Shown: piece after piece, positions 4,007 through 64,000 of the stretch
Position numbering within the stretch: the first letter of the stretch is position 1
How the letters are laid out: each line of letters opens with the position of its first letter
NCBI RefSeq assembly: GCF_008180155.1
Contig: NZ_VSZS01000064.1
Span: forward strand, 248,001-312,000
From: Neoaquamicrobium microcysteis
GTDB lineage: Bacteria > Pseudomonadota > Alphaproteobacteria > Rhizobiales > Rhizobiaceae
DNA length: 64,000 bases
Direction of reading: 5' to 3'
The notes under the pieces: generated by a model
Database searches by the model: none
Seen by the model: only the letters and a program-made list of their open reading frames with translations
Told to the model about the DNA's origin: nothing
Translations under genes and position numbers: made by a program

Positions 4007-4063
4007 AGCGAGGCTTGCAGGCATGGTGGGTGGGCCGGCAGCAGCTTTCGGGGAACCAGCATC

Positions 4064-48350: not shown

Positions 48351-51038
48351 TCAATCCTTGCGGTCGCCATAGACAGGCGGTCTCTTTTCCCGGAACGCTG
48401 TCAGGCCTTCCTCAAGGTCGGGGCCGTCGAGATGAAGCGCGAAGCGTTCGATCTCCGCATACATACGTCCCTGCCTCTCGACGTCTCGAGAGCCTGGCCG
48501 CGTGAGCCACCGCACATGAGCAAGCGCTTGCGGGCTGCAGCGGCAAATCTCCTGCGCGATCTCCACCGCCCTCGCCATGAGCCGGTCCTTCGGTACCGTC
48601 TCGTTGACGAGACCCCAGTCGCGCAGCGTTGCCGCATCGAGCAGGCTGGCCGTATTGAACAGCAGGGCCGCCCGCGACGTTCCGATCCGTTCCGGCAAGC
48701 GCACAGTCGCGCCGCCGGCCGGCACGATGCCGTATTTCGCATGGCCGTCGCCGAGCCTTGCCCCCTCGGCCGCGACGATGATGTCGCAGGCGAGCAGCAG
48801 TTCCAGCCCGCCGGCGACGGCGACGCCGTTGACAGCGGCGATGACGGGAACCGGAAAATCCTCGATCATCTGGATGACGCCGAGATTGTAGGCGAGCATG
48901 TCGATGAGGCGGCTTCCGCCTGCCTGCTGTGCCTGCTCGAACTCGACGAGGTCGCCGCCCGCGCAGAAGGCCTCGCCCGTGGCCGCAAGGATCAGCACCC
49001 GCAATGCCGGCAGGGCGGCTGCTTCCCTCAGCCGGCTTTCCAGCGCCTGCACCATGGCCTGCGAAAGCGCGTTGCGGCTTGCCGGCCGGTTCAGCGTGAT
49101 CGTGGCAACGCCGCCTTCAACTGCCAGCAGAACACCTTCGTCGGCGTTTTCGCTGGCGGCCGCGCTCACGCGGTAGGTTTGCGGCAGCGGCTGCAAGGCT
49201 GCCTCCAGCGCCGCGATCTGTTGCGCGGTGGCGCCCGTTACCTCGACATCGACCAGCGTATGCTTCTGGGCGTCGAGCGAAACCGTCACCCGGGCCTTCG
49301 CAGCGCTGCCGGCAGCAATGCCAAGTTCGAGGCGAACCTTTTCCTCGATCGCCATGTCGCGAAGCGCCGGCTTGTAGATCTTGCCCACCGCCGTGACGGG
49401 CAGCGCGTCGATGACCAGGATGCTGCGAGGCCGGGCCGGCGGCTCGTGCACATGCGCCTCCAGATGCGCCTTCAGCGCCGCGAGGTCGATCTGCATCCCC
49501 GGCGCCGGCACGACGAACAGGGCGGGCACCTCGCCGGCATACTGGTCGGGCATGCCGACCGCCGCACTGATATGCACGCCGGCAAACTGGTTGGCCACGT
49601 CTTCGATTGCGGCCGGGTCGATATTGTGCCCGCTGCGCACGATCAGATCCTTTTCGCGCCCGGTCAGCACCAGCCGGCCGTCGCTGCGCAGGTAGCCCAC
49701 GTCGCCCGTTGTAAGCCAGCCATCCGCATCAAGCGTGCCGATGTTGTGCGCCTGATCGACATAGCCCGGAAAGACCTGTGGTCCTTTCACCTGAACCAAC
49801 CCGCTTTCGCCCGGCTCGCAAAGCGTGTCGTCGTCGGTATCGAGGCGCACGATACGCGTCTGCGAAAACGGCGCGCGGAAGCCGACGCTGCCGGCCAGCG
49901 GCTCGCCCCGGCCGGGGTTGAAGGCGATGGCGGCAGCCGTCTCCGTCATGCCGTAGGTCTCGTAAAGCCTGATGCCGGTCGTCGCCTCGAAACGGCTGCC
50001 GACGGCTTTCGGCAGCACCGCGCCCCCCGTCAGGGCCATGCGGACTGATGATGCGTCGATGCCTTGATGCCATGTGTTGGTAAGCGCGGCGATCGAGGTC
50101 GGCACGCCGTTGATGACCGTGACGCCGAAATCCTCCACAAGTCTCCAGTAGTTTTCCACCACTGCGGGCGGGCGAAGCGCGTAGGGCGACGGCACGATCA
50201 TGTGAGCGCCGGCCGCCAGCACCGACAGCCCCACCGTCATCGTCCCCCCGACATGGAAGAACGGGAAGCCGTTGATGACGACATCGTTCTCGTCATAGCC
50301 GAAGACCTGGGCGAAGGAGAACGCGGCGTGGATCTGGTTTCCGGCGGTCAGCCGTACGAGCTTGGGCCGGCCAGTCGTTCCGCCGGTGTGAAACAGGGCA
50401 CAGACCGCGTTCCGATCCTGCGACGGTTCGAAATCGAGCGCATCGGCAGGGGAGGGCGAAAGCGCATCGACCAGTCGCGTGAAACCGTCGGCATCTTCCA
50501 TTGGATCGTCGCCGATCACCAGCACGCGTTGCAGGCTCGGCACATGGTCGAACACGCCCTGCGTCTTGTCCCAGCACATCTCGTCAAGCGACCGGGCCGG
50601 CACGATCAGGATCGTCGCCCCTTCGGCATCGAGCAGGTCGAAGATCGCCTCGCGGCTGAGCAGATAGTTGAGCGAGCTGGCGACGCCGGCAACCTGCGCG
50701 CCGAGCAGCAGAGCCGGCAGTTCCGGCAGCGTGGGCGACAGGAACGCCGCGACGCCCCTGCCCGGTGCGAGGCCAAGCCTGCGGAACATGTTGGCGGTGC
50801 GCGTGATCTCGCCCAGCAGTTCGCGATGGGTCAGTGAGATGCCGACATCTTCCGCGTCGGGTGAACGCAGGACGGTGAGCGCGGGGCGGTCGCCGCAGTG
50901 CTGCGCGGTGGCGGCAAACAGATCATGGAGGTTGCGCGCCGTGATCAGCTCGTCATAGGGCGTCGCCTCGATCGCGGCGATGTCATCGATGGTCTCGACG
51001 CGCCTGACCGGCTTCGTCGTCTTCAGGAGCCGCTTCAT
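48351..51038 (-). CDS. Acyl-CoA synthetase fused to a crotonase (enoyl-CoA hydratase-like) domain
   Basis: An 895-residue two-domain enzyme. Residues 1 to about 560 are an AMP-forming acid-CoA ligase: P-loop FHTGGTTGRPK, YGMTET, TTGDVGYL, GREKDLIVRSG and the C-terminal lysine in VGKIYKP. After a 70-residue bridge, residues 635-895 are a crotonase fold with the oxyanion motif GEAFCAGGDL and GGLELLLACD. Glu746 matches crotonase Glu144, but the Glu164 position is His766 (GDGHAKYG), so simple hydration may not be its reaction. The ATG at 51038 overlaps the stop of the RbsA-like ATPase; the open frame beyond it is a shadow. The frame is intact through the junction. Confidence 0.92.
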   Translation of the reverse strand: MKRLLKTTKPVRRVETIDDIAAIEATPYDELITARNLHDLFAATAQHCGDRPALTVLRSPDAEDVGISLTHRELLGEITRTANMFRRLGLAPGRGVAAFLSPTLPELPALLLGAQVAGVASSLNYLLSREAIFDLLDAEGATILIVPARSLDEMCWDKTQGVFDHVPSLQRVLVIGDDPMEDADGFTRLVDALSPSPADALDFEPSQDRNAVCALFHTGGTTGRPKLVRLTAGNQIHAAFSFAQVFGYDENDVVINGFPFFHVGGTMTVGLSVLAAGAHMIVPSPYALRPPAVVENYWRLVEDFGVTVINGVPTSIAALTNTWHQGIDASSVRMALTGGAVLPKAVGSRFEATTGIRLYETYGMTETAAAIAFNPGRGEPLAGSVGFRAPFSQTRIVRLDTDDDTLCEPGESGLVQVKGPQVFPGYVDQAHNIGTLDADGWLTTGDVGYLRSDGRLVLTGREKDLIVRSGHNIDPAAIEDVANQFAGVHISAAVGMPDQYAGEVPALFVVPAPGMQIDLAALKAHLEAHVHEPPARPRSILVIDALPVTAVGKIYKPALRDMAIEEKVRLELGIAAGSAAKARVTVSLDAQKHTLVDVEVTGATAQQIAALEAALQPLPQTYRVSAAASENADEGVLLAVEGGVATITLNRPASRNALSQAMVQALESRLREAAALPALRVLILAATGEAFCAGGDLVEFEQAQQAGGSRLIDMLAYNLGVIQMIEDFPVPVIAAVNGVAVAGGLELLLACDIIVAAEGARLGDGHAKYGIVPAGGATVRLPERIGTSRAALLFNTASLLDAATLRDWGLVNETVPKDRLMARAVEIAQEICRCSPQALAHVRWLTRPGSRDVERQGRMYAEIERFALHLDGPDLEEGLTAFREKRPPVYGDRKD

Positions 51039-52534
51039 CAGTGGACAGCCGCATACATTATGGTTTCCTCGTCCGCGCGGTGGCCCTCGAACTCCTCCAC
51101 GATGCGTCCCTGCCGGCAGACGAGGATGCGGTCCGAAAGCTGGAGGATTTCCGGCAGGTAGGACGAGATCACCATCACCGCGATGCCCTCGTCGGCGAGC
51201 CGGTTGATGAGGTGGTGGATTTCGGCGATGGCGCCGACATCGACCCCGCGCGTCGGTTCGTCGAATATGACCAGCTTCGGCTTCTGCACGAGCGCCTTGG
51301 CCACCACGACCTTCTGCTGGTTGCCGCCGGAAAGCTCGATCACCCGCGCATCCGCGTTGATCGCCTTGACGTTCAGGGCGTCGATCCATTCCTTCGCGAT
51401 GGCGCGCATCTCCTTCATGGAAACCGTGGTCGATTTCGTCCGGCCCGCCGCCATCGCACCCAGATGAATGTTCTCGGCGATCGACATCGTTTCGAAGAAG
51501 CCCTCGATCTTGCGGTCCTCGGTGACGTAGATGATGCCATCGCGCACCGCGGGCCGCGGCACCCGGTAGCGCACCGGCCGCCCGTTGAGCCGCACCTGTC
51601 CGCCGTGGAAGAAGTCTCGCTTGAGAACGCCGGCCACCACCTTCGCCGCCTCCGTGCGGCCCGAGCCGATGAGGCCGAACACGCCGGTGATCTGGCCGGC
51701 GAAGACGGAGAACGATGTGTTGCGCACCATGTTGCCCATGGAAAGGTTCTGGACGCTGAGAACCTTCTCGCCGGCGCCGCGAACCTGCCGGTCCGTGTGG
51801 GAGCCGTAGAGTTCGCCGCTGAGCGTGCGGCCGACCATCGCGCGCACGATCTTCTCGCGGTCGAAGGCCGAGGTCGCGTCGGTGACGACGTGCTGGCCGT
51901 CGCGCATCACGGTGATGCGGTCGGCGATCTGCAATGCTTCCTCGAGCGCGTGGCTGATGAAGATGATCGACACGCCGCGCTGCTTCAGCCGGCTAACCAG
52001 CGAGAAGAACTGGTGCTTCTCCTCCGGCGTCAGCGTCGCGGTGGGCTCGTCGAAGATGATGACCTGCGCGTTGTGATGCACCGCGCGCGCGATCTCGACC
52101 ATCTGCTTCTGGCCCGCACCGAGGGTCGCGACCATCGCCGTCGGGTCGACGTGGAAATTGAGGGACTGGAGGAACTGCTGGCCGGCGATGTAGATGCCGC
52201 GCAGGCGGTGAAAGAGCTTGTCGTCTGTGAGATAGATGTTCTGCGCGACGGTGAGCGAGGGGACAAGGCTCGTCTCCTGATAGACCATGGCGATGCCGCG
52301 CCCGAGCGCATCGGAGGGCGAGCCCAGTTCTACCTTCTGCCCGTCTACCCAGAGCTCGCCGGAGGTCGGATGGACGACGCCGGCGATCATCTTGGTCAGC
52401 GTGGACTTGCCTGCGCCGTTCTCGCCCAGAAGGGCGTGCACCTCGCCGCGATGCAGCGCGAAGCTGACATCCTGCACCGCTGGAACGCCGCGATATTCCT
52501 TGGTAGCGTTCCTGAGTTCGACGATGGCGTTCAT
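51038..52534 (-). CDS. Sugar-type ABC transporter ATPase with two nucleotide domains (RbsA/MglA-like)
   Basis: A 498-residue double ATPase. The first domain has Walker A GENGAGKST, a variant signature LGAGQKQMVEIA and Walker B VIIFDEPTATLT. The second has the usual degenerate P-loop GLIGSGRTE and a good LSGGNQQK with LVIFDEPTRGVD. This asymmetry is normal for RbsA-type proteins. It energises the two RbsC-type permeases encoded at 53598-55712 and 56802-57776. Both ends overlap neighbouring genes by ATGA, so it is tightly embedded in the operon. Confidence 0.94.
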   Translation of the reverse strand: MNAIVELRNATKEYRGVPAVQDVSFALHRGEVHALLGENGAGKSTLTKMIAGVVHPTSGELWVDGQKVELGSPSDALGRGIAMVYQETSLVPSLTVAQNIYLTDDKLFHRLRGIYIAGQQFLQSLNFHVDPTAMVATLGAGQKQMVEIARAVHHNAQVIIFDEPTATLTPEEKHQFFSLVSRLKQRGVSIIFISHALEEALQIADRITVMRDGQHVVTDATSAFDREKIVRAMVGRTLSGELYGSHTDRQVRGAGEKVLSVQNLSMGNMVRNTSFSVFAGQITGVFGLIGSGRTEAAKVVAGVLKRDFFHGGQVRLNGRPVRYRVPRPAVRDGIIYVTEDRKIEGFFETMSIAENIHLGAMAAGRTKSTTVSMKEMRAIAKEWIDALNVKAINADARVIELSGGNQQKVVVAKALVQKPKLVIFDEPTRGVDVGAIAEIHHLINRLADEGIAVMVISSYLPEILQLSDRILVCRQGRIVEEFEGHRADEETIMYAAVH

Positions 52535-53601
52535 GCGGCTTCTCCCATCGCGTGGAGGGCCACGACGACGCCGTCACCACGCGATGCCGCGAAAACATGC
52601 CCGTCGTGCTCGATGACGCTGGTGATGCCGTGCGTGGCTCCGTCGGCCCGGCTGTGGAGGCTCGATTGCGGGCGCAAGCCCTCGTCGAACCGCACGCACA
52701 GCCCGGCCGACATGGTCGGGGCCCAAGGTTTCAACAAGCCCAGATGCTTCACGCCGCCGCCTTGCAGCGGTTCGTAGAAGCTGCGGCCGGAACGCAGGGT
52801 AGGGGCGACCCAGAACGGCTGGGGAACCTCGGCCAGCATGCGCCGGCGATAGGCGGGCTCGCGCAGCACGAACTCGACAAGCTGGCTGCGCGGCGCAAAG
52901 CCCGCGAGCCAGTATCCGCCGGCTGTAGCCGATATCCTGCCGGGATAGGCCGGAAGGTCGGCGGCCAGCACTTCGGCCGGCCCGCCGTCGACCGGAAGTC
53001 CCAGCAGGCGATGCCGCCAGGCTTCCGACGCGATGAGACGGTCGCCCGCGAGCGCGAGGCCGGCCGGCCAGGCAAGCCCGTCGGCAAGCGTGCTGCCTTC
53101 CCCGCTCTCCAGATCGATGTGCCGGACGCTGCCGGATGCGTTGCGTTCCATCAGGTCGCGCTGCCAGTCATCGGCACCGTTGGTCGCCGACCCGCTGGCG
53201 ACGTAGAGCCGCCCGCCGCCGGCAACCATCGCCGTGATGCAGGCCAAGCCCGGATCGTAGCGCCTTCCGTCGAACGCACCGCCGAATATGACGATCTCGC
53301 CGGTCGCGAGCGCGGCAGCGAGGCCGCCTTCAACGGCGGCCATGGCGGTGATGGGCGCGCCGCATCCATATGTCGCCTCCCATTGCTTAGCCGGCGAAAG
53401 GCGATGAATATGATCGCCCGCCGAAGCGTGAACCAGGCCGGCTGAAACGGCGATGCAGTCGACATTTTCGAGCGGCAGTTTCGTGCCGGCTTCGTCCAGC
53501 CTGCGGTTGGGCCGCATGGCACCGTCCAGCGCCGGCACGGTCACGGCCGCCTCGCCGCGCCCCAGCAGATTGTCCAGCGTACGCGCGAGCGCTGCGATCA
53601 T
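52531..53601 (-). CDS. SMP-30/strictosidine-synthase-like beta-propeller protein
   Basis: A 356-residue protein with repeated short beta-sheet units (ISVSAGLVHAS-like, MVAGGGRLYVASGS, GLALAGDRLIASE, VIEHDGHVFAAS), as expected of a six-bladed calcium-dependent propeller of the gluconolactonase/strictosidine-synthase group. The motif DLPAYPGRISA parallels the LPGYPDNI motif of the preceding gene product, but the paired Asn is lacking, so metal binding may be altered. No leader is seen, so cytosolic. The ATG at 53601 overlaps the permease-propeller gene and the stop overlaps the ATPase gene. Probably a lactonase or hydrolase-like partner; activity unproven. Confidence 0.8.
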   Translation of the reverse strand: MIAALARTLDNLLGRGEAAVTVPALDGAMRPNRRLDEAGTKLPLENVDCIAVSAGLVHASAGDHIHRLSPAKQWEATYGCGAPITAMAAVEGGLAAALATGEIVIFGGAFDGRRYDPGLACITAMVAGGGRLYVASGSATNGADDWQRDLMERNASGSVRHIDLESGEGSTLADGLAWPAGLALAGDRLIASEAWRHRLLGLPVDGGPAEVLAADLPAYPGRISATAGGYWLAGFAPRSQLVEFVLREPAYRRRMLAEVPQPFWVAPTLRSGRSFYEPLQGGGVKHLGLLKPWAPTMSAGLCVRFDEGLRPQSSLHSRADGATHGITSVIEHDGHVFAASRGDGVVVALHAMGEAA

Positions 53602-55712
53602 GTCCGCCCCCAATAGGATGTCTGGCCGGTCCAGCTCTCGTCCATGCCGTCCAGCTTCAGTTTTCCGATGCGGTTGTTGAAGATGCCGCCGATGTAGAGG
53701 TGGCCCTTGTGCTCTCGCATCGAGGTTATCATCGGGTGGTTCTCGCCACCGAAATCCCACAGCGTCTCTATGATGCGGCCGTTCTCGTCGAAGCGGATGA
53801 CGCAGCCGGTATTGATGTTGGGATAGAGCCATTCGTCGGGCGCGATGCGGCGCGCCATGCGCTTGCGGAAGCCCGGCATCTTCATCGCCAGATCGACCGA
53901 GGGCGTGCGCATGCCAACCAGTGCGACCCAGTACGTACCGTCGGATGCGCGGTTGATGTTGTCCGGGTAGCCGGGCAGATCGGAGATGACCGGCTCCACC
54001 GTTCCCTTCTTCGGCCCGTCGAACCAGTAGCGGCTGATGCGGCAGCCCCAAGTCTCGGCGAACAGGAACGACTGCCCGTCATGGGTCATGCAGATGCCAT
54101 TCGGGAAGACGAGGTTCTTCAGCACCGTGCGGGTAGAACCCGTGTTCGGATCGAAGCACACGATACGTCCGTTGCCGCGCGATTCCAGGCAGTCCACCGG
54201 CCAATCGTGCATCTCGTAGCGGATCGTCGCTTCGCTGAAGAAGACGCGGCCGTCGAGCGCGATGTCGAGATCGTCCGCCAGCCGCAGGCGCGAATCGTCG
54301 ATGATGGAGAGCCACGAGCGGTTGGTCTCGTCGGTCAGCCGCTCGATCCGGCGGTCCATCGTCACGCGATAGAGGCCCATGCCGCCGATGCACACCAGCA
54401 GCGAACCATCCTTGGCGAACGCCATGCCGAGCGGACGTCCGCCGGTATGGGCGAAAACTTCCTGCCTTTTGTAGTCGGGCGCGAAGAACCGGACGATGTC
54501 GCCGGTGCGGTCGCCGACATAGATATTGTCGTCGTCGTCGAGGATGACGTCCTCCGGGCCGTCGATCCGGCCAAGGCCGATCAGCTCGACCGGGCGCAGC
54601 CGGTCATTCAGGGCATAGGGCGAGGCGCCGCTCGTCGGCGGTGCCGGAGGCAGGTCGGCATAGGTGGGCGAGACGTATACCTTTGACAGGACCTTGTGGC
54701 GGTTCTTGAGCCACCGCACGTCGATGGCCACGGCCGCCAGAAGCACGATGCCGAGAAGCAGCGAGTTCGCACCGCTGGTGACCCCGAGCCGGACGAGGCT
54801 GTTGACGATAATCATCACCGTGATGGAGCCGATCACCGCCTTCGCCGCCGAGCCGCGTCCGCCACCGAGGCTGTTGCCGCCCAGCACGGCTGCCGTCAGC
54901 GCGGCGATCTCCAGACCGATGCCGGTATCGGCCCCGGCGCCGCCGAGGCGCGAGGCGAACAGGACGCCCGCGAGCGACGCGAGGATGCCGGACACGACAT
55001 AGGTCGAGCAGATGACGCGGCGGACGGGGATGCCGACATTGTGCGCCGAGCGGCGCGAGCCGCCGACGGCCAGTATGTGCCAGCCCGCGCGGCTGCGGCT
55101 GAGGACCAGATGGATGATGACGGCGATCGTCACGATCACGACGACGCTGAACGGCGCGCCCAGCAGGAAGCCCTCGCCGAAGAAATACCAGAGATCGGAA
55201 TCGGGAAAGGCGGCCGCAATGGAAACCGAATATTTCAGCAGCAGCATGTCGACGATGGCGCGCACGATGATGAGGGTGACGAGCGTCGTCAGGAAGGCGC
55301 GCAGCCGCAGATACCCCACGAGAAGGCCGTTGACGAGGCCTACGGCCGCGCCACACATGACGGTCGTGGCGACCACGGCCGGCACCGACCATTCCGCGAC
55401 GCTGATGAGCGCCAACGCAACGATGTTGCCGAGCGCGAAGGTGGATCCGACGGACAGGTCGATGCCGCCCGCGACCATGACGATCATCAGCGCGATGACG
55501 ATCAGCCCGAACTCGCCCCATTGCCGCGCCAGGTTGGTCACGCTGGCGGAACCGAAGAAGTCGGGTATCAGCGATCCGAAGACGGCCAGCACCGCCAGCA
55601 GGATGAGCATCGGGATGGCGTTGTCGACCCAGCGCTTGGTGAGGATTTCACCGACGAGGTGGTCGGGCACGGCGCGGTAGCGCCACCGTGTCATCGTGTC
55701 TGACAGGCTCAT
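53598..55712 (-). CDS. RbsC-type ABC permease fused to a strictosidine-synthase-like propeller
   Basis: A 704-residue two-part protein. Residues about 30-335 are a sugar-type permease of eight to ten helices, with IVMVAGGIDLSVGS and LGGNSLGGGRGS as family motifs. Residues 336-375 are a Pro/Ser-rich linker. Residues 376-704 form a propeller: GPEDVILDDDDNIYVGD, LVFPNGICMTHDGQ, FAETWGCRISRYWF, LPGYPDNINRASDGTYWVAL. Glu387, the FPNG Asn and the PDN Asn-Asp match calcium ligands of gluconolactonase-type enzymes. RbsC permeases end in the cytoplasm, so the propeller should meet substrate as it enters the cell. The frame is intact through the junction and no stop or ribosome site interrupts it. Confidence 0.9.
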   Translation of the reverse strand: MSLSDTMTRWRYRAVPDHLVGEILTKRWVDNAIPMLILLAVLAVFGSLIPDFFGSASVTNLARQWGEFGLIVIALMIVMVAGGIDLSVGSTFALGNIVALALISVAEWSVPAVVATTVMCGAAVGLVNGLLVGYLRLRAFLTTLVTLIIVRAIVDMLLLKYSVSIAAAFPDSDLWYFFGEGFLLGAPFSVVVIVTIAVIIHLVLSRSRAGWHILAVGGSRRSAHNVGIPVRRVICSTYVVSGILASLAGVLFASRLGGAGADTGIGLEIAALTAAVLGGNSLGGGRGSAAKAVIGSITVMIIVNSLVRLGVTSGANSLLLGIVLLAAVAIDVRWLKNRHKVLSKVYVSPTYADLPPAPPTSGASPYALNDRLRPVELIGLGRIDGPEDVILDDDDNIYVGDRTGDIVRFFAPDYKRQEVFAHTGGRPLGMAFAKDGSLLVCIGGMGLYRVTMDRRIERLTDETNRSWLSIIDDSRLRLADDLDIALDGRVFFSEATIRYEMHDWPVDCLESRGNGRIVCFDPNTGSTRTVLKNLVFPNGICMTHDGQSFLFAETWGCRISRYWFDGPKKGTVEPVISDLPGYPDNINRASDGTYWVALVGMRTPSVDLAMKMPGFRKRMARRIAPDEWLYPNINTGCVIRFDENGRIIETLWDFGGENHPMITSMREHKGHLYIGGIFNNRIGKLKLDGMDESWTGQTSYWGRT

Positions 55713-55780: not shown

Positions 55781-56776
55781 TCAGTTGAGACCGGGCAAGG
55801 ACCAGCACGAGGCTGGCGTCATGTTGTCCTTCGTCACGAAGTCGAGCGGCGTGAACAGCGTGGTCTTGGTCGTGCCGGCCGGCTGCCCCTGCTGGATGAG
55901 GTGCTTGATCATCGTCGCCATATCACGCGCCTGGCCCGGCACGTGGTAGACGACGACCTCCGAATAGGTGCCGTTGGCCAGCCCGTCACAGGCCATCTGG
56001 TTGCCGCCGCCCTGCGTGAGCAGGTAGACGTCCTTGCCCGATTCCTTGATGGCCGCGGCGGTGCCCACGTCCATCACGTCCCAGAAGCCGGTGATCGCGC
56101 ACAGGTCCGGATGCTGCTGGATCACGGTCGCGGCGATGTTCTTCGCCTTGGTGCCGTCCCAGTCGGCGGCCTGGTTCGATACGATCTGGATGTCGTCGTG
56201 CTGCGACAGCACGTTCTGGATGCCCTGCATTTGGTAGACGCTGGCGGCGGCCGTCAGCACGCCCTGGGTGATGGCCACCTTGCCGCTGCCGCCATTGGCC
56301 GGCGAGCAGACCTCGACCAGCCGTTCGCCAATCCGCTGCCCCATGCCGACATAGTCGGCCCCGATGAAGGCGTCGGTCGAATAGCTCGACCGCATGTTCA
56401 CCTGCACGACGTAGATGCCGGCTTCCTCGGCCCGGCGCAGGAGGCGGGCATAGGACTGGACGTCGGGATTATGGACGACGATGACGTCGGGCTTTTCCGA
56501 GATCAGCGAGGTGATCGCCTGAGCGCCCGCATCCGTGCTCCAGTTGGGATCGCGGATGTCGATCGTCATGCCCAGTGGTTCGAGCGCTTCCTTGAGGCCT
56601 GCGGCCCAGCCTTCGGTGAGGTCGAAGCCCATGGCCACGGGTATGTAGGCCACGCGCTTTCCCTCGAACGCGCTGTAGTAAGGTTCGCGCGTGGGGTCGT
56701 CGATGCCCTGAGCGAAGGCCGCTCCGGCGCAAAGGGTGACTGCCGTTGCCAGCAGGGTGGTCGTTATCAGTCGCAT
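55781..56776 (-). CDS. Sugar-type ABC substrate-binding protein (RbsB-like)
   Basis: A 331-residue periplasmic binding protein. The signal peptide MRLITTTLLATAVTLCAG ends AFAQ before GIDDPTREP. The ATG at 56776 has GGGAGGAG 6 bases upstream, whereas the longer frame to 56836 overlaps the permease gene. The mature part shows the RbsB-like pattern YIPVAMGFDLTEGWAAGLKEA and PDVIVVHNPD, and two cysteine pairs (VCSPAN, DLCAITG) occur. It lies between two permease genes, 25 bases after the first. Ligand unknown; the tailoring enzymes point to a lactone, glycoside or acid rather than ribose. Confidence 0.92.
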   Translation of the reverse strand: MRLITTTLLATAVTLCAGAAFAQGIDDPTREPYYSAFEGKRVAYIPVAMGFDLTEGWAAGLKEALEPLGMTIDIRDPNWSTDAGAQAITSLISEKPDVIVVHNPDVQSYARLLRRAEEAGIYVVQVNMRSSYSTDAFIGADYVGMGQRIGERLVEVCSPANGGSGKVAITQGVLTAAASVYQMQGIQNVLSQHDDIQIVSNQAADWDGTKAKNIAATVIQQHPDLCAITGFWDVMDVGTAAAIKESGKDVYLLTQGGGNQMACDGLANGTYSEVVVYHVPGQARDMATMIKHLIQQGQPAGTTKTTLFTPLDFVTKDNMTPASCWSLPGLN

Positions 56777-56801: not shown

Positions 56802-57776
56802 CTAGATGTCCCCTTGCTGAGCGGTCTGCTCGTCACGGGGGTTGACGATCGTGTCGATCACGATTGCGGTGAGAAGGATGATGCCCTTGATGACGTTCTG
56901 GACGGTGTACTGGATGTCCATGATCGTCATGCCGTTCAGCAGCACGCCGATGAGCAGCGTACCGACGATGACGTTGCGTATGCCGCCCTTGCCGCCCGAC
57001 AGGCCGATGCCGCCCAGCACCACGACGAGGATCACGTCGTAGACGTAGGTCGAGATCGCGACGCGCGTGTTCATGCTGGCGACCGAGGCGGCCGTGACCA
57101 TGCCGGCCATGAAGCCGATGAGCGACGACAGAACGTACTGCATCACGATGACCGGACGCGCGGGTATGCCGGTGATGCGCGCGGCCAGAAGGTTGTCGCC
57201 CACCGCACGCAGATAGTGACCAGCCCTCGTGTAGCGGAGGAACAGGTAGCCCATCAGGCACACGCCGGCGAAGACGAAGATGGGCACCGGCACGCCGTAG
57301 ATGGTGCCCTGTCCGAGCCACAGCAGGTGGCGGGCCGCCTCCGGCATGTAGACGACATCGAGCCGCAGCAGGAAGTAGCGCCCGAACCCGTAGATCAGCG
57401 TCCCCATCGCCAGCGTGGCGAAGATGGCGGGGATTTCGACATAAGCGACAAGGCAGCCGGTGATCGTGCCCGTCACGAGGCTGAAGGCGAGCCCCATAGC
57501 CACCGCCTGGTGCAGCGGCACGCCGTTGGCGACCAGTTGCAGGGTCCATGCGACCGAGACGGCCATCAGCGCCACCAGCGAGAGGTCGATGCCCCGGCCG
57601 ATGACCACCAGCCCCATCGCTACGCCCAGCATGCCAAGGATCGATACGCTGCGAACGAGATTGAGCAAATTGTTGGTCGTCAGGAAGCCCGGCAGCGCTA
57701 TCGCGAAACCGATGCACAAAAGGACGGCCAGACCGAAGACGATCTGCTCCTGACTGAGATGCCCAAGAGCCCGCAT
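56802..57776 (-). CDS. Sugar-type ABC transporter permease (RbsC-like)
   Basis: A 324-residue permease with about ten hydrophobic segments. Family motifs are VVIGRGIDLSLVALMA at about residue 60 and VVLGGIGLSGGKGG at about 260. It is the first gene of the minus-strand operon and starts 240 bases from the divergent AraC gene, with GGGAGGAA just upstream. It forms the channel together with the permease half of the fusion encoded at 53598, so only one partner carries the propeller. Confidence 0.94.
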   Translation of the reverse strand: MRALGHLSQEQIVFGLAVLLCIGFAIALPGFLTTNNLLNLVRSVSILGMLGVAMGLVVIGRGIDLSLVALMAVSVAWTLQLVANGVPLHQAVAMGLAFSLVTGTITGCLVAYVEIPAIFATLAMGTLIYGFGRYFLLRLDVVYMPEAARHLLWLGQGTIYGVPVPIFVFAGVCLMGYLFLRYTRAGHYLRAVGDNLLAARITGIPARPVIVMQYVLSSLIGFMAGMVTAASVASMNTRVAISTYVYDVILVVVLGGIGLSGGKGGIRNVIVGTLLIGVLLNGMTIMDIQYTVQNVIKGIILLTAIVIDTIVNPRDEQTAQQGDI

Positions 57777-58016
57777 GCAATTCCTCCCTTGCGTCGGTCC
57801 AGATGGGTGGGCCGACGATCGGGCCGGAGGTTAGGAGCGCCGGCTATGCGATTCTTCTCCACGGGCGCATGATTTTTGCGTGAGAGCGCAGTGGCACGAT
57901 TGTCCGCTGGACGCCTGCAACGATGCAGAATACGCTGCGTCAATGCCGTGTCCGGGCTGAGGAGGATCGCTTCGACGCGAAGCCGGCCAAGGGTTCTGTA
58001 GAGGGTGGAGGACCCC
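57777..58016. promoter_or_regulatory. Divergent regulatory region, sugar-type ABC operon and AraC gene
   Basis: A 240-base gap between divergent genes. I see no clear -35/-10 pair or long palindrome. The region must contain promoters in both directions and the binding site of the AraC protein, but I cannot place them. Confidence 0.4.
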
Positions 58017-58961
58017 ATGGACCTTGTATTTTCGACCGACAATTATGAGCCCGCGAAGCGGTATGCTGCGTGGCGCGACGCCATCTGCGACGTCTATGTG
58101 CATGTCGACGTAAAGGCCGCCGATCCCGAGCGTTATCGCGGCTTCATTCGCGAGGCGAAATTCGGCGGCGTGGTGCTGACGGACATCCTGCTTTCGGAAC
58201 AGAACATCAGGCGCAACCGCCAGCACATCTCGCGGCTGGATAAGGAATGCTACTATCTCCAGCTCCTGCACAAGGGCAGCATCAGCGTCGTGCAGGGCGG
58301 CGAGGTGCACAAGTCCAACGCGGCGCGCGGCGCGATCTTCTGCGCGACCGAACAGTATGAGCTGCACGGCCATGGCGAGGTCCGCTCGTTCTACCTCGAA
58401 ATACCGCGCGACGAGTTCGCGCTGCGCTTTCCGCGCGAGCGGATACCCGTGTCGGCCGCACTCAACACCACGCAGGGGCTGGGCCGCATCGCCACCGAGT
58501 TCTGTGCGACGCTGGCCACCGAGGGCTCGCGCCTGGAGGACGGGGTTCGAGCCGGACTGGGCAGCCAGCTCATGGATTTGCTGGCCTTCTCGCTCATGAC
58601 CAGCGAGGGCGACATGCCGGCCGCCGAAGGGGCGGTGCAGAAGGCGAGGTTGCGCTCGGTCCAGCAGTGGATCGAGACGCACATCGCCGAGCCCGACCTT
58701 TCGCTGGAGCGGGTGGCGACCGCCAACGGCATGTCGCTGCGCTATCTGCACCTGCTGTTCAGGAACTGCGACATGTCCGCGTCGGAGTGGATCTGGAACC
58801 GCAGGCTGCAACTGGCCTACGACCGGATTTCGCGGGGCGACGGCGTGTCGATCACCGCGATCGCCTACGATCACGGCTTCAACAGCTCGTCGCACTTCTC
58901 CACGATGTTCCGCAGGAAATACGGCCTGTCGCCGCGCGACATTGCGCGCAGCAGACAGTAG
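58017..58961 (+). CDS. AraC-family transcriptional regulator
   Basis: A 314-residue AraC-type activator. The N-terminal half (about 1-190) is a cupin-like domain of the type often found in AraC regulators of aromatic or hydrocarbon catabolism. The C-terminal double helix-turn-helix spans residues 210-310, including LSLERVATANGMSLRYLHLLF and the family end SSHFSTMFRRKYGLSPRDIARSR. I choose the ATG at 58017 because GGAGG lies 5 bases upstream; the GTG at 58005 has none. It is divergent from the sugar-type ABC operon and probably activates it when the substrate or its CoA ester is present. Confidence 0.92.
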   Translation: MDLVFSTDNYEPAKRYAAWRDAICDVYVHVDVKAADPERYRGFIREAKFGGVVLTDILLSEQNIRRNRQHISRLDKECYYLQLLHKGSISVVQGGEVHKSNAARGAIFCATEQYELHGHGEVRSFYLEIPRDEFALRFPRERIPVSAALNTTQGLGRIATEFCATLATEGSRLEDGVRAGLGSQLMDLLAFSLMTSEGDMPAAEGAVQKARLRSVQQWIETHIAEPDLSLERVATANGMSLRYLHLLFRNCDMSASEWIWNRRLQLAYDRISRGDGVSITAIAYDHGFNSSSHFSTMFRRKYGLSPRDIARSRQ

Positions 58962-58971
58962 TCAGTCGGCC

Positions 58972-59670
58972 CTAAACTTCCAGCCACTCGCGCCGGATCG
59001 CCTCGTTGGCCAGAAGCTCGGCCGGCGTGCCCTCGAACACGATCTGGCCGTGCCCCATGACGTAGACGCGGTGCGAGATGCGCATCGCGATGACAAGCCT
59101 CTGCTCGACCAGCAGGATGGAAATGCCCCGCTGCGCGATCTCTTGCAGGAGCTCGCCGATGCGTTCCACCATCTGCGGCGCGAGGCCCTCGGTCGGCTCG
59201 TCGATCATGATGAGATCGGGATTGCCCATGAGCGTGCGGCAGATGGTGAGCATCTGCTGCTCGCCGCCCGACAGCGCGCCACCCGGGGCGTTGGCGCGGT
59301 CCTTGAGCTGCGGGAAGAGCTTCCACGTTTCTTCGAGGCTCCAGCGCGGGTTTTCGACCCCGCGCTTGATGCCCAGAAGCAGGTTTTGCTCGACCGTCAG
59401 CGAGGGGAAGATGGCGCGTTCTTCCGGCACGAAGCCGATGCCCAGATGCGCGATCTCGTGCGGGCTGCGCCCGGCCACCGGCTTGCCGCGGAACGTGATC
59501 CGGCCCTGCGGTGCGGGGTCGCCCATGATCGCCTTGAGCGTGGTGGAACGGCCCACACCGTTGCGCCCGAGGATGCTGACGATCTCGTTGTCGCCCACTT
59601 CGAGGCTTACGCCCTGCAGGATGTGGCTCTTGCCGTAATAGGCGTGAAGGTCGCTTACCTGAAGCATCAT
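58972..59670 (-). CDS. livF: Branched-chain-amino-acid-type ABC ATPase (LivF-like), Walker A variant
   Basis: A 232-residue LivF-type ATPase. The P-loop reads GRNGVGRST, with Arg41 where the nucleotide-binding lysine is expected. The signature LSGGEQQM, Walker B LIMIDEPTEGLAP and the switch LLVEQ are intact, so the change is isolated. The codon CGT is clear in the sequence. The protein works with the LivG-like subunit, whose Walker A is normal. The start overlaps the livG stop. It is last in the operon and is convergent with the AraC gene. Confidence 0.92.
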   Translation of the reverse strand: MMLQVSDLHAYYGKSHILQGVSLEVGDNEIVSILGRNGVGRSTTLKAIMGDPAPQGRITFRGKPVAGRSPHEIAHLGIGFVPEERAIFPSLTVEQNLLLGIKRGVENPRWSLEETWKLFPQLKDRANAPGGALSGGEQQMLTICRTLMGNPDLIMIDEPTEGLAPQMVERIGELLQEIAQRGISILLVEQRLVIAMRISHRVYVMGHGQIVFEGTPAELLANEAIRREWLEV

Positions 59671-60431
59671 GCGGCCTCCGTGCCGAGATAGGCCTGCTGG
59701 ACCGCGGCATTGGCCTTGATCCGCTCAGGCGTGTCCGATGCGATCACCTGTCCGTAGACGAGCACCGAAATGCGGTCTGCCAGATCGAAGACGACATGCA
59801 TGTCGTGCTCGATCATCAGTAGCGTGCGGTTCTCGCTGACCTTGCGGATCAGCGCGACGACGCGTTCCACCTCGGCATGGCTCATGCCGGCCGTGGGCTC
59901 GTCGAGCAGGATGACGTCGGCGCTGCCGGCGATGGTGAGGCCGATCTCGAGCGCGCGCTGCTCGCCATAGGTCAGCACGCCCGCAGGCACGTCCGCGCGG
60001 TCCATCAGGTCGATTTCGGTCAGGATTTCCTCGGTGCGGCGTCTCACCTCGTCCAGCCGCTCCACCCCTTTCCAGAACGCATATTTGTGGCCCATAGCCC
60101 ACAGCGTCGCGCAGCGGACGTTTTCCCACACGCTCAGGCGCGGGAAGATGTTGGTGACCTGGAAGCTGCGCGACAGGCCGCGCCGGTTGATGAGCTGCGG
60201 CGGCATGCCGGCAATGTCTTCGCCGCGCAGCTCTATCGTCCCCCCGTCTGGGCGATAGTGCCCGCTGATGAGATGGAACAGCGTCGACTTGCCGGCGCCG
60301 TTCGGGCCGATGACGGCATGGCGCTCGCCCGGCGCCACGACGAGGTCGACGCCGCGGATGATCTCCATAGGGCCGAAGCTCTTGCGGACGCCGGCGAGCT
60401 CGATGGCCGGAACAGGGCGGGCTTCGTTCAT
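59667..60431 (-). CDS. livG: Branched-chain-amino-acid-type ABC ATPase (LivG-like)
   Basis: A 254-residue LivG-type ATPase. Walker A is GPNGAGKST, the signature region reads LTYGEQRALEIG (LSYGEQR form typical of LivG) and Walker B is VILLDEPTAGMS. The family insert GLSRSFQVTNIFPRLSVWENV is present. Start and stop overlap its neighbours. In this family the ligand ranges from leucine to urea, amides and aromatic acids, so the name does not fix the substrate. Confidence 0.93.
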   Translation of the reverse strand: MNEARPVPAIELAGVRKSFGPMEIIRGVDLVVAPGERHAVIGPNGAGKSTLFHLISGHYRPDGGTIELRGEDIAGMPPQLINRRGLSRSFQVTNIFPRLSVWENVRCATLWAMGHKYAFWKGVERLDEVRRRTEEILTEIDLMDRADVPAGVLTYGEQRALEIGLTIAGSADVILLDEPTAGMSHAEVERVVALIRKVSENRTLLMIEHDMHVVFDLADRISVLVYGQVIASDTPERIKANAAVQQAYLGTEAA

Positions 60432-61720
60432 CGGTTCCCCCTTTGCGGCAGGGCCGCGTCATAGGCGTTGCGGGCAAGGCGCGCGGCGCGCAGGAACAGC
60501 CAGAGCCCGACCGCGAACACGACGGCTCCGATCGCCCAAGGCGTCAGCGTCGTCACGTCGAACGGGATCGAGTAGAGCGTCATGCGCGGCCCATAGGCGG
60601 CCCTGATGCTGAACTGGTGGCTGGTCTCGATAAGCATGGCGAGCCCCGCCACCGCAACCGCACCCGGCACGAACATCAGGAAGTAGTAGGGCAGCACGCG
60701 ATGCAGCGTGCGCGCGGCCAGCAGCGGCTGCTGCATGGAGAGCAGGCCCGCGATGCCGCCCGGCGCGAACATCACCACCCCGATGAACAGCAGGCCGACA
60801 TAGAGCGGCCACACAGTCGTGGCGTCGCTGAGTATCAGCTGGAGCCAGGTGACGAGGATCGCGCCGATGATCGGGCCGGCAAAGTTTCCGACACCGCCGA
60901 TATAGGTCATCAGCACGACCGAGCCGGATTCCACGGCGCCCATCTGCGCGGCGTTGACGATCTCGAAATTGATCGCTGACAGGCCGCCCGCGACACCGGC
61001 GAAGAGGCCCGACAGGCTGAAGGCGATGAAGCGCACCGTGCTGGGATCGTAGCCGATGAAGCTGACACGCTGGGGGTTGTCGCGAACGGCGTTGCAGATG
61101 CGCCCGAACGGGGTGCGCGTGATGGCGTACATCAGCACGATCGACAGGAAGCACCACGCCGCGATCAGGTAGTAGACCTGTATCTGCGGACCGAAAGAGT
61201 AGCCGAAGACGCGCAGCATGTCTGTTCTGTCGGTGGTGATGCCTTCCTCGCCGCCAAAGAAGCGGCGCAGGATGAGCGCGCTGGACGCGACGAGCTCGCC
61301 GATGCCCAGCGTAATCATGGCGAAGGCCGTTCCCGCGCGTTTCGTCGCCACCGCGCCGAAAAGCACGCCGAAAAACAGCCCGCCCAGCGCGCCGACGACA
61401 GGAAACAGAGGCAGCGGTATCGGATAGCTGTTGCCGCCGACCAGGTTGAGCATGTGAACCGTGGCGAAACCGCCCAGCCCGAAGAATACCGCATGGCCGA
61501 AGGACAGCAGTCCCGTCTGGCCCAGCAGCATGTTGTAGGACAGGGCGAAGACGATCATCGTCCCCATCAGACTCATGGTGGAAAGCGCAAGCCGCGAGCT
61601 GAAGACGTAGGGAAGCAGCAGCAGGGTGAGCGCCAGCGCGATCCAGATGCCGTACCGGACGAGAAGTCCGGCACGGGTCGAGGCGGGCGCGGCGGAAGAG
61701 ATCGTGGCAGACTGGTTCAT
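60428..61720 (-). CDS. livM: Branched-chain-amino-acid-type ABC permease (LivM-like)
   Basis: A 430-residue permease with about ten membrane segments. The conserved core has YNMLLGQTGLLSFGHAVFFGLGGFA at about residue 65-90 and GGVGNFAGPIIGA near residue 275. The protein carries an extra C-terminal part (about residues 320-430) with two or three more hydrophobic segments beyond the usual LivM length of about 320-350. Start and stop overlap livH and livG by four bases. It forms the channel with the LivH-like subunit. Confidence 0.92.
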   Translation of the reverse strand: MNQSATISSAAPASTRAGLLVRYGIWIALALTLLLLPYVFSSRLALSTMSLMGTMIVFALSYNMLLGQTGLLSFGHAVFFGLGGFATVHMLNLVGGNSYPIPLPLFPVVGALGGLFFGVLFGAVATKRAGTAFAMITLGIGELVASSALILRRFFGGEEGITTDRTDMLRVFGYSFGPQIQVYYLIAAWCFLSIVLMYAITRTPFGRICNAVRDNPQRVSFIGYDPSTVRFIAFSLSGLFAGVAGGLSAINFEIVNAAQMGAVESGSVVLMTYIGGVGNFAGPIIGAILVTWLQLILSDATTVWPLYVGLLFIGVVMFAPGGIAGLLSMQQPLLAARTLHRVLPYYFLMFVPGAVAVAGLAMLIETSHQFSIRAAYGPRMTLYSIPFDVTTLTPWAIGAVVFAVGLWLFLRAARLARNAYDAALPQRGNR

Positions 61721-62667
61721 GTGTCACGGGTTCCCATGAGTCCGCGCGGCCGGAAGATCAGGACCAGCACCAGCAGGATGTACGGCATGATCGGCGCGAT
61801 CTGCGCGATGGTGACGCGCCAGATGTCGGCCAGCCAGACTTCCAGAACGGCGGAGAGCTGCGAAGTGCCGAACAGGTCGGCAAGCGAGACGTTGAAGGCG
61901 ACCGCGAAGGTCTGGACGAGACCGATCAGCAGGGACGCGACGAGCGCACCGCCGAGCGAGCCCAGCCCGCCGACGACCACGACGACGAACAGGATCGGCC
62001 CCAGCAGGGCTGCCATGTTGGACTGCGTGATCAGGATCGGCCCGGCGATCACGCCGGCGATTGCCGCCAGGCCCACGCCCACGCCGAAGACCAGCATGAA
62101 GATGCGGTCGACATTGTGGCCCAGCATGCCGACCATGCCCGGATGGGTGAGCGCCGCCTGCACGATAAGGCCGATGCGCGTGCGCTTGATCGTGAGAAGC
62201 AGGGCGATGAAGATCGCGACCGATATCAGCAGCACGAAGAGCCTGAACGCCGGATAGTTGACCGAGAACACCGTGAAGGCCGCGAAATCGAGAGATGGCG
62301 GCACGCGGTAATCGACCGGCAGCTTACCCCAGAACATCTCGACCATCTCGGTGATGACGAAGGTGAGGCCGAAGGTGAAGAGCAGCTCGGCGACGTGGCC
62401 GTGCTTGTGCACGCGGCGCAGCCCGTAGCGCTCTACGGCCATGCCGATCAGCCCGACGAGTACCGGGGCGATGATGAGCGCTGGCCAGAAACCCAGCCTG
62501 CGGCTGATCTCGAAGCCGAAGAACGCGCCGAGCATGTAGAAGCTCGCATGGGCAAGGTTGAGCACGCCCATCATGCTGAAAATGACGGTCAGCCCGCTGG
62601 CCATCAGGAACAGCAGCATGCCGTAAAGGACGCCGTTGAGCGTCGAAACAAGGATGATCTCAAGCAC
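61717..62667 (-). CDS. livH: Branched-chain-amino-acid-type ABC permease (LivH-like)
   Basis: A 316-residue permease with eight or so membrane segments. The N-terminal LNGVLYGMLLFLMASGLTVIFSMMGVLNLAHASFYMLGAFFG is the LivH signature, and VVVVGGLGSLGGALVASLLIG marks the C-terminal half. The start lies 93 bases after the binding-protein stop, past a strong hairpin, and AACCGTGCTTGAG covers the start context. Its stop overlaps the livM start. Confidence 0.93.
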   Translation of the reverse strand: MLEIILVSTLNGVLYGMLLFLMASGLTVIFSMMGVLNLAHASFYMLGAFFGFEISRRLGFWPALIIAPVLVGLIGMAVERYGLRRVHKHGHVAELLFTFGLTFVITEMVEMFWGKLPVDYRVPPSLDFAAFTVFSVNYPAFRLFVLLISVAIFIALLLTIKRTRIGLIVQAALTHPGMVGMLGHNVDRIFMLVFGVGVGLAAIAGVIAGPILITQSNMAALLGPILFVVVVVGGLGSLGGALVASLLIGLVQTFAVAFNVSLADLFGTSQLSAVLEVWLADIWRVTIAQIAPIMPYILLVLVLIFRPRGLMGTRDT

Positions 62668-62719
62668 GGTTGAACCTTCCGCGGCCGTTGCCGGCGCTTT
62701 CAGGAGGATTTTGCGGATG

Positions 62720-62750
62720 GGCCGGGCGGCGCGCGGAGCGCCACCCGGCC
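62720..62750 (-). terminator. Intercistronic stem-loop after binding-protein gene
   Basis: A 13-position stem pairs GGCCGGG-c-GGCGC (62720-62732) with GCGCC-a-CCCGGCC (62738-62750), with one mismatch and a 5-base loop. It lies between the LivK-like stop and the livH start and has no T-run. It fits the pattern of mRNA-protecting hairpins after binding-protein genes in this window. Confidence 0.6.
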
Positions 62751-62760
62751 GGTTCGTCCC

Positions 62761-64000
62761 TTACGGACGTTCCATCTCGCAGGTCGTGGGAAGCAGCGTG
62801 TCCTCGGTGGGCACGGTGGCGGCGAGCTTCCAGCCCCAGCCGGTGTGCTCCTCGTCGAACTTCTCGCCCTCGCCAAGCTCGCCCAGCGCCGCGATGTAGA
62901 GCGGCTGGAAGAACTGGTGGTCGTCCGCGCGCATGAAGCCCTCCTCGCCCTTGGCGAAGCTGTCGTGCTTCATCTCGACGAGCTTGGGTATGAAATCGCC
63001 CGGATCCTCCGACCCGGCCTCTTCCATGGCCTTGAACACCATGTCCATCATGTTGAACACGCGCGGGAAGTAGACCGGAGCGGACGAGAACCGCTCCATA
63101 TAAGCGCCGGCGCGTTCTTCCGCCGGGCCGTAGCCGAGATTGTTGATGCCCTCGTTGATCTGGAAGACCTTGTTTTCGAGGTTCGCCTGCTTGATGGCGG
63201 TGGGTGCGCCGGCGCCGCCGGCATAGAACGTGTACCAGTCGACATCGAGGCCGGTTTCGCCGGCCGCCTTTATCAGCAGTGCCAGATCCTGGCCCCAGTT
63301 GCCGGTGATGACGGTGTCTGCGCCGGAAGCGCGGATCTTGGCGACATAGGGCGCGAAGTCGGTGATGCGCACCAGCGGATGATACTCGTCGCCGACGATC
63401 TCGATGTCAGGACGCTTTTCATTGAGCATGCGCTTGGCGGCACCCGCTACCGCATGGCCGAACGAATAGTCCTGCGAGATAAGGTAGACCTTCTTGATGT
63501 CTTCCTTGTCCTTCATGAAATTCGTCAGCGCTTCCATCTTAATGTCGGCGCTGGCATCCCAGGTGAAGTGCCAGTAGCTGCACTTCTCGTTGGTCAGCAC
63601 CGGATCGATGGCGGCGTAGTTCAGGTGGACGATGTTCTCGCCCGGATTGCGCTCATTGTACTTGGTGATGAAGTCGGAAACCGCGACCGCGACAGACGAA
63701 CCGTTGCCCTGCACGATGACCTGAATGCCCTCGTCGATGGCCTTCTGCACCTGCACGAGGCTGATCTGGGGGTTGGTCTGGTTGTCGTAGCCGACGATCT
63801 GAACCTGCTTGCCGTTGATGCCGCCGCGCGCGTTGACCTCGTCGGCGATGAAGTTGAGCTGGTTGAGCCCGATCTGGCCGATGCTGGCGCCGCCGCCCGA
63901 GAGCGGATCGACATAGCCGATCTTGATCGTTTCCTGGGCCATTGCCGACAGCGCGGTCGAGCCCAGCATGGCGAGCGCAAGCGCCGCCGATCCGATGAAT
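62761..64000 (-). CDS. livK: Branched-chain-amino-acid-type ABC binding protein (LivK-like), 5' end outside window
   Basis: At least 412 residues of a periplasmic binding protein. The frame runs open to the window edge. The residues before the internal ATG at 63969 continue a hydrophobic leader (IGSAALALAMLGSTALSAMAQ), so the true start lies just beyond the window and that ATG is only part of the signal peptide. The mature part begins ETIKIGYVDPLSGGGASIGQ, a typical LivK-like opening, with SQDYSFGHA in the second domain. One disulfide candidate is Cys in NEKCSYW together with the near-terminal TTCEMERP. It is first in the operon with livH, M, G and F. Confidence 0.92.
   Translation of the reverse strand, partial: FIGSAALALAMLGSTALSAMAQETIKIGYVDPLSGGGASIGQIGLNQLNFIADEVNARGGINGKQVQIVGYDNQTNPQISLVQVQKAIDEGIQVIVQGNGSSVAVAVSDFITKYNERNPGENIVHLNYAAIDPVLTNEKCSYWHFTWDASADIKMEALTNFMKDKEDIKKVYLISQDYSFGHAVAGAAKRMLNEKRPDIEIVGDEYHPLVRITDFAPYVAKIRASGADTVITGNWGQDLALLIKAAGETGLDVDWYTFYAGGAGAPTAIKQANLENKVFQINEGINNLGYGPAEERAGAYMERFSSAPVYFPRVFNMMDMVFKAMEEAGSEDPGDFIPKLVEMKHDSFAKGEEGFMRADDHQFFQPLYIAALGELGEGEKFDEEHTGWGWKLAATVPTEDTLLPTTCEMERP

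Follow-up and report, generated by a model that had tools for sequence, protein, structure and literature searches.

The window analyzed here (the whole 64,000-nucleotide stretch of contig NZ_VSZS01000064.1 of Neoaquamicrobium microcysteis, positions 248,001 to 312,000) encodes, within a single open reading frame, an RbsC-type permease joined to a strictosidine-synthase-like (SSL) propeller with a conserved set of predicted metal ligands, and, directly downstream, a second SSL-like propeller in which these ligands are lost. Both genes belong to a five-gene ATP-binding cassette (ABC) transporter cassette with a conserved gene order. We propose that this cassette specifies an importer of the CUT2 type that carries a metallo-hydrolase tethered on its cytoplasmic side and is accompanied by a pseudo-enzyme, a reading to which we give an even chance of being correct.

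A permease and a propeller in one reading frame

The fusion gene and its parts are as follows.

53598..55712, minus strand: permease-propeller fusion, 704 residues plus stop (open frame, Pfam, fused in 80/80 homologues)
54678..55631, minus strand: RbsC-type permease domain, residues 28-345 (BPD_transp_2, AlphaFold2 helices, nine hydropathy peaks)
54597..54677, minus strand: linker, residues 346-372 (P349-P386 spacing of 36-39 residues in 81/81)
53601..54596, minus strand: SSL-type propeller, residues 373-704 (Str_synth, SGL, SSL_N; AlphaFold2; Foldseek)

A preliminary description of the window had reported an uninterrupted frame holding an RbsC-type permease, a linker and a propeller, and this is borne out: the frame runs from an ATG at 55712 to a stop at 53600-53598 with no internal stops, and Pfam detects BPD_transp_2 at residues 59-327 (126 bits against a curated cut-off of 26.8), SSL_N at 365-409 (50.8 against 18.9), SGL at 394-600 (57.7 against 26.3) and Str_synth at 480-566 (75.8 against 25). 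The score for the NCBIfam ribose permease equivalog PRK09512 lies below its cut-off (156 versus 398 bits). The AlphaFold2 model, built from 50 of the 81 aligned family members, consists of a helical membrane domain followed by an all-beta domain (mean pLDDT 79.8, pTM 0.67), with pLDDT below 50 at residues 469-471 and 617-634. Structure prediction had been suggested as a check on the propeller, and the predicted fold is indeed a propeller, weak in the poorly modeled loop 617-634: its Foldseek matches include TGW6 (8kg3, E 1.1e-14), strictosidine synthases, Drp35, PON1, the RPA3624 lactonase and DFPase, and with a target TM-score of 0.79 the fused propeller is, as modeled, a complete propeller fold.

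For homologues, one genome per species was scanned and the best 80 of the 169 stretches encoding a relative were kept (54.6-86.8% identity to the window protein); together with the window protein these make up the 81 sequences counted throughout. The search for proteins with both domains shows that the fusion is widespread, with permease and propeller in a single frame in all 80 kept homologues, 77 of them complete and three (L013, L023 and L044) reaching a contig end at residue 648 or later. The distance from P349 to P386 is nearly constant (36-39 residues in 81/81) although the linker sequence is the least conserved region of the protein, and the segment that follows the tenth transmembrane helix (residues 334-349) is highly conserved (mean 86.5% versus 71.9% for the permease).

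These observations bear on whether a sequencing or assembly artefact, or a frameshift, could have joined two genes. Nothing was found in favor of this, and we consider it virtually inconceivable, because the same in-frame junction occurs in 80/80 independent loci and the linker length is nearly constant; a frameshift check had been suggested for 54600-54710 in particular, and all 80 homologues cross this region in one frame. A propeller made on its own by initiation within the frame was considered for Met only. The window protein lacks any Met between residues 300 and 430; 49 of 81 homologues contain one in the range 338-386, most often at 354, and may use such a start.

A conserved predicted metal site in the fused propeller

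The predicted ligands map to the following codons.

54552..54554, minus strand: E387 of GPE, predicted metal ligand (E in 81/81)
54273..54275, minus strand: D480, predicted metal ligand (N in 43/81, D in 38/81; aligns with the Asn of RPND in SGL proteins)
54099..54101, minus strand: N538 of FPNG, predicted metal ligand (N in 81/81; aligns with PNG in SGL proteins)
53958..53963, minus strand: D584-N585 of PDN, predicted metal ligand or ligands (D and N in 81/81; D584 aligns with PDG in SGL proteins)

We observe that the five predicted ligand positions (E387, N/D480, N538, D584, N585) are retained in 81/81 fusions, as well as in 13 of 14 additional fusions chosen from the matches of a family-wide scan. 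The GPE, FPNG and PDN motifs, singled out in the preliminary description as likely ligands, are present and belong to a ligand set conserved as in SMP30/DFPase/PON-type enzymes. When the fusion is aligned with four SGL proteins from the window's own genome, D480 coincides with the Asn of RPND, N538 with that of PNG and D584 with the Asp of PDG; the first Glu ligand does not fall in a single column of this alignment, and E387 of GPE, which we take to be the first Glu ligand of the PON/SMP30 types (PON1 pattern), is equated by motif only. As read from the sequence, the ligand set of the fused propeller (Glu, Asn/Asp, Asn, Asp) is of the SMP30/DFPase/PON type, and sequence and models together suggest that the fused propeller would bind a metal. 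PMC3551927 gives Glu18, Asn154 and Asp204 as the SMP30 ligands and adds a counterpart of Asn103 for DFPase, Drp35 and PON, and PMC12362111 gives Glu, Asn, Asn and Asp as the metal ligands of a propeller lactonase.

A second propeller without the ligands

52531..53601, minus strand: second SSL-like propeller without metal ligands, 356 residues (ATGA overlap; homology, fold and ligand counts)

The preliminary description correctly stated that the second permease of the operon has no propeller, and overlooked that this separate gene supplies a second one. Its start lies within the last codons of the fusion (ATGA, a four-base overlap), and an ATG at the identical overlap is found in 61/77 loci. 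The encoded protein is homologous to the fused propeller (profile comparison, E 2.4e-31), and its AlphaFold2 model (pLDDT 86.0, weak at 270-297) has the same fold, with a strictosidine synthase as Foldseek match (E 2.3e-13).

Among the 79 second-propeller sequences (two ended by a contig end), 54 have none of the five ligands and 25 have N538 only. Position 387 is Asp in 70/79, in principle still able to bind, position 480 is Thr in 73/79, position 584 is Ala, Gly, Ser or Cys, and position 585 is mostly Arg; judged by these residues, the second propeller does not have the ligand set of a metal-dependent hydrolase. All 79 sequences enter these counts, and alignment A4 of the second propeller holds 26 of them, with L034 and L064 left out for an odd start or a short call. 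Conservation is higher for the fused than for the second propeller in 2346/2346 pairs from 69 cassettes (mean 69.3 versus 48.1%). A tree of 15 fused (of 81), 15 second (of 79) and 15 free (of 15) propellers places each of the three groups on one side of a branch, with the second not nested in the fused, and we rejected a recent duplication of the fused propeller as its origin; the deeper order of this tree is unsure, given a long-branch warning from the program.

Class-level searches with the propeller alone, the permease alone or the second propeller covered 289 sampled genomes, with the best six to seven candidates per genome scored. Strong matches to the second propeller adjoin a fusion in 9/9 cases, and the ten weaker matches are eight fused propellers and two free SSL proteins.

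Membrane topology

RbsC-type permeases have ten membrane helices, with both ends in the cytoplasm. Ten long helices were counted as membrane-spanning in the AlphaFold2 model of the fusion. Beyond residue 333 the top 19-residue hydropathy mean is 1.19, versus 1.9 or more at the membrane peaks; the segment following the final helix is basic and contains no further strongly hydrophobic stretch. Taken together, this places the fused propeller probably in the cytoplasm, as had been proposed, with the qualification that the hydropathy scan shows nine of the ten helices as peaks and misses the short helix 267-277. The propeller had also been put at the channel exit; a position beside the exit is likelier, because the ATPase must occupy that face.

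Free bacterial SSL proteins have a hydrophobic stretch within the first 70 residues in 12/15 cases, the other three being cut by the chosen start. Two free SSL propellers that begin with such a stretch (L115 2182-3246 and L116 1927-3078) are probably, from their sequences, membrane-anchored and facing the periplasm. The N-terminal stretch would place the free proteins in the periplasm, so that the SSL fold seems to have changed sides of the membrane when it was joined to the permease.

The transporter cassette and its neighbors

The remaining cassette genes and the genes on either side are listed here, with their positions relative to the fusion.

51038..52534, minus strand: RbsA-type double ATPase, 498 residues (domain matches; +2 in 74/81 loci)
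55781..56776, minus strand: periplasmic binding protein, Peripla_BP_4 (domain match; -1 in 77/81 loci)
56802..57776, minus strand: second RbsC-type permease without propeller (Pfam; -2 in 75/81 loci)
48351..51038, minus strand: acyl-coenzyme A (CoA) ligase/enoyl-CoA hydratase fusion (Pfam, NCBIfam, TGATG junction with the ATPase gene)
58005..58961, plus strand: AraC-family regulator, divergent (domain matches; -3 in 10/81 loci, window included)

The cassette reads, on one strand, permease 2, binding protein, fusion, second propeller and ATPase. It is complete in 69/81 loci, and its order is kept in 64 of the 65 loci with enough flanking sequence; in the exception, L064, permease 2 and the binding protein are separated by a called frame of 97 residues, with the order otherwise unchanged. 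The same order is found in the three annotated plasmid regions that were opened (3/3, of 16 plasmid matches) and around all 14 additional fusions. The start of the binding protein was taken at the ATG, its frame also being open to an upstream GTG at 56836. One genome (L127, L128) carries three complete cassettes within ~25 kb, whose fusions are 43, 81 and 60% identical to that of the window, and another (L129) carries two within ~12 kb, with fusions at 59 and 83%.

The ligase-hydratase gene, present in 9/81 loci (window included) and at +3 in eight of them, is likely part of the same operon as the cassette. In the window it is a single 895-residue frame, and in L127 its two parts are matched by two neighboring stretches, so that relatives may differ in whether the parts are joined. 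No solved relative of the ligase-hydratase was found at E 1e-50 or better. Beyond the AraC gene (58975-63999, minus strand) lie genes that by appearance resemble a branched-chain amino-acid type (Liv) ABC transporter, and among the listed loci the cassette was not seen to be accompanied by such genes.

Catabolic context and substrate

Of five catabolic gene types, one or more are present near the cassette in 65/81 loci and none in the available stretch in 16/81. There are three main neighbor sets: the ligase-hydratase with AraC; a zinc alcohol dehydrogenase with an aldehyde dehydrogenase; and a class IV aminotransferase with a carboxymuconolactone-decarboxylase-family (CMD) protein and a quinone oxidoreductase. 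Residue 480 of the fused propeller is Asn in 37/37 loci with the CMD gene and 17/17 with the aminotransferase, and Asp in 17/17 loci with the aldehyde dehydrogenase, 15/15 with the zinc alcohol dehydrogenase and 9/9 with the ligase-hydratase.

The frequency of catabolic neighbors (65/81 loci) fits an account in which the propeller is simply one of the hydrolases of the same catabolic pathway, joined to the permease for reasons of dosage or localization and without a mechanistic link to transport, as do the free SSL propellers, 12/15 of which likewise have an N-terminal hydrophobic stretch, as if membrane-tethered. We find this account improbable, given that no close unfused homologue of either half was found in the 289 sampled genomes, which would be odd for a dispensable tether, and that it leaves the ligand-less second propeller unexplained.

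A single substrate could not be read from the neighboring genes, which form at least three different catabolic sets, and similarity of the binding protein gave no assignment either, its solved relatives (best E 3.4e-16) being of mixed sugar types. Compared with the ribose-binding protein 2ioy, the binding protein has Trp232 (77/77) and Gly257 (77/77) at the positions of an expected Asn and Asp, which are presumably sugar-binding residues in the ribose-binding protein; because of these replacements the cassette is, on its sequence, probably not a ribose transporter. Our guess at the substrate is a sugar or aromatic acid in the form of an ester or lactone.

Distribution and origin

With match thresholds of E 1e-20 or better for the propeller and E 1e-40 or better for the permease, the propeller-alone search of the class returned 25 places, comprising nine fused propellers (55-100% identity, open frames of 709-739), 13 free-standing SSL propellers (34-39%) and three second propellers, and the permease-alone search returned nine places, the same nine fusions. 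No close unfused relatives of the permease or of the propeller were found among these 289 genomes. Across 398 genomes of the phylum (E 1e-60), we observe 15 full-length fusions in 11 genomes, the remaining 11 matches being ten propellers alone (38-41%) and one permease alone. Within the family (E 1e-100), 53 of 297 sampled genomes have a fusion match, and within the genus only the window's own genome does (1/8), so the distribution of the fusion is patchy. More distant fusions (43-47% identity) were also found, and the fusion occurs in Variovorax, Paraburkholderia and Bordetella as well as on a Pantoea plasmid.

Plasmid records (E 1e-60) match the fusion in 16 of 72,556 cases, 15 of these over at least 80% of the protein. 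Ten of the 16 are named SMP-30/gluconolactonase, two permease and four show no name, an annotation trap in which the fusion is labeled by one half only or left unnamed.

The nearest propeller-less relative encountered is a locus of genome G625 (L114), in which permease 2, binding protein and permease follow in the same order as in the window (41, 37 and 40% identity; ATPase 43%). Unlike in the window, the permease is here joined directly to the RbsA-type double ATPase in one 846-residue frame (1933-4473, minus strand), with no propeller between. This one case suggests that both propellers were inserted between permease and ATPase.

A proposed tethered hydrolase and its strongest rival

In the mechanism that we propose, the two different permeases would form the channel and the double ATPase would drive import. 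The fused propeller, with its SMP30/DFPase/PON-like metal site, would sit on the cytoplasmic side of one permease and probably cleaves the imported compound, or the first product made from it, by hydrolysis of an ester or lactone bond. For the second propeller, which lacks the metal site, we take translational coupling to be the probable mode of synthesis; it most likely has no catalytic role and partners either the fused propeller or the plain permease. This mechanism is favored by the constancy of the fusion and of the gene order, by the absence of close unfused relatives and the occurrence of the second propeller only beside a fusion in the sampled genomes, by the retention of the ligands in the fused and their loss in the less conserved second propeller, and by the link between residue 480 and the catabolic neighbors. 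Fusion, gene order and ligand patterns are observed, topology and metal binding are predicted from sequence and models, and hydrolysis, the substrate and a heteromeric complex are parts of the proposal only.

Several observations weigh against this mechanism, the chief among them being a distant fusion (L121, genome G676) with Ala, Ala, Thr, Val and Gly at the five ligand positions, in which fusion and cassette are intact despite the loss of the metal site. To judge from its residues, the metal site is not required everywhere, and because L121 has lost it, the fused propeller can persist without one in at least one lineage. Furthermore, H422 and E553 are invariant in the 81 fusions, yet 9/10 distant members have Lys and Ser in their place, and one closer copy likewise has Ser for E553; H422 is thereby ruled out as a universal catalytic residue. 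The link between residue 480 and the neighboring genes is imperfect for the CoA-transferase and for one LysR type (11 Asp and 1 Asn each), and it follows clades, so that shared ancestry alone may explain it. The relative placement of the two domains in the fusion model is unreliable (pTM 0.67), and class-level scoring was limited to the best six to seven candidates per sampled genome.

The strongest rival to a tethered hydrolase is a regulatory or structural role, in which the propellers bind the imported compound or a product and regulate the ATPase (trans-inhibition), or keep the heteromeric complex assembled, with the metal being structural. Such a role would account for a second propeller that is found only beside the fusion and has no ligands, for the near-fixed linker length and highly conserved segment 334-349, and for the retention of the fusion without a metal site in L121. 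We nevertheless think it the less probable explanation, if a serious one, because the full ligand set in 81/81 aligned fusions seems to go beyond the needs of a scaffold and because ligand residue 480 changes with the neighboring catabolic genes, though by clade.

Comparison with known systems

The component families are all known, and the fusion protein is already present in public databases under partial names. A literature search by title and the start of the abstract, in which subscription journals are poorly covered and one result set was sampled in part, yielded no paper that evidently describes either the fusion or the cassette with two propellers. With its BPD_transp_2 domain and the adjoining ATPase with two nucleotide-binding domains and Peripla_BP_4 protein, the fusion permease is of the CUT2 (RbsC) type. 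The cassette shares with CUT2/RbsABC-type importers the BPD_transp_2 permeases, the double-domain RbsA-type ATPase and the Peripla_BP_4 binding protein, and differs from them in that its two permeases are unlike each other, one of them carrying a propeller at its C terminus, and in that the permeases and the binding protein fall below the cut-off for every NCBIfam model among the matches listed.

ABC importers are generally viewed as passing their substrates unchanged. A widespread class of ABC importer that converts its cargo on arrival, as a hydrolytic counterpart of group translocation, with a fused catalytic propeller, a pseudo-enzyme propeller paired with it in trans, and transport and the first catabolic step united in one machine, is a speculative and rather doubtful extension of our proposal. 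The arrangement may allow a cell to process a nutrient during import, and a conserved enzyme-permease fusion with a ligand-less twin would offer a test case for coupled import and catalysis.

With the SSL propellers (TGW6, the plant strictosidine synthases and bacterial SSL proteins) the fused propeller shares fold and Pfam families, but it is attached to a transporter, whereas the free bacterial relatives (34-41% identity) mostly have an N-terminal hydrophobic stretch. With SMP30/gluconolactonase, DFPase, Drp35 and PON1 the fused propeller shares the ligand motifs aligned at D480, N538 and D584, and it is 12-16% identical to Drp35, PON1 and DFPase in the structural matches. PMC12362111 describes DrSOD of Deinococcus radiodurans, a superoxide dismutase fused to a six-bladed calcium beta-propeller with measured lactonase activity. 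DrSOD is, like the window's fusion, a natural joining of a propeller to an unrelated functional domain, and unlike it, has a soluble enzyme rather than a transporter as partner and a single propeller.

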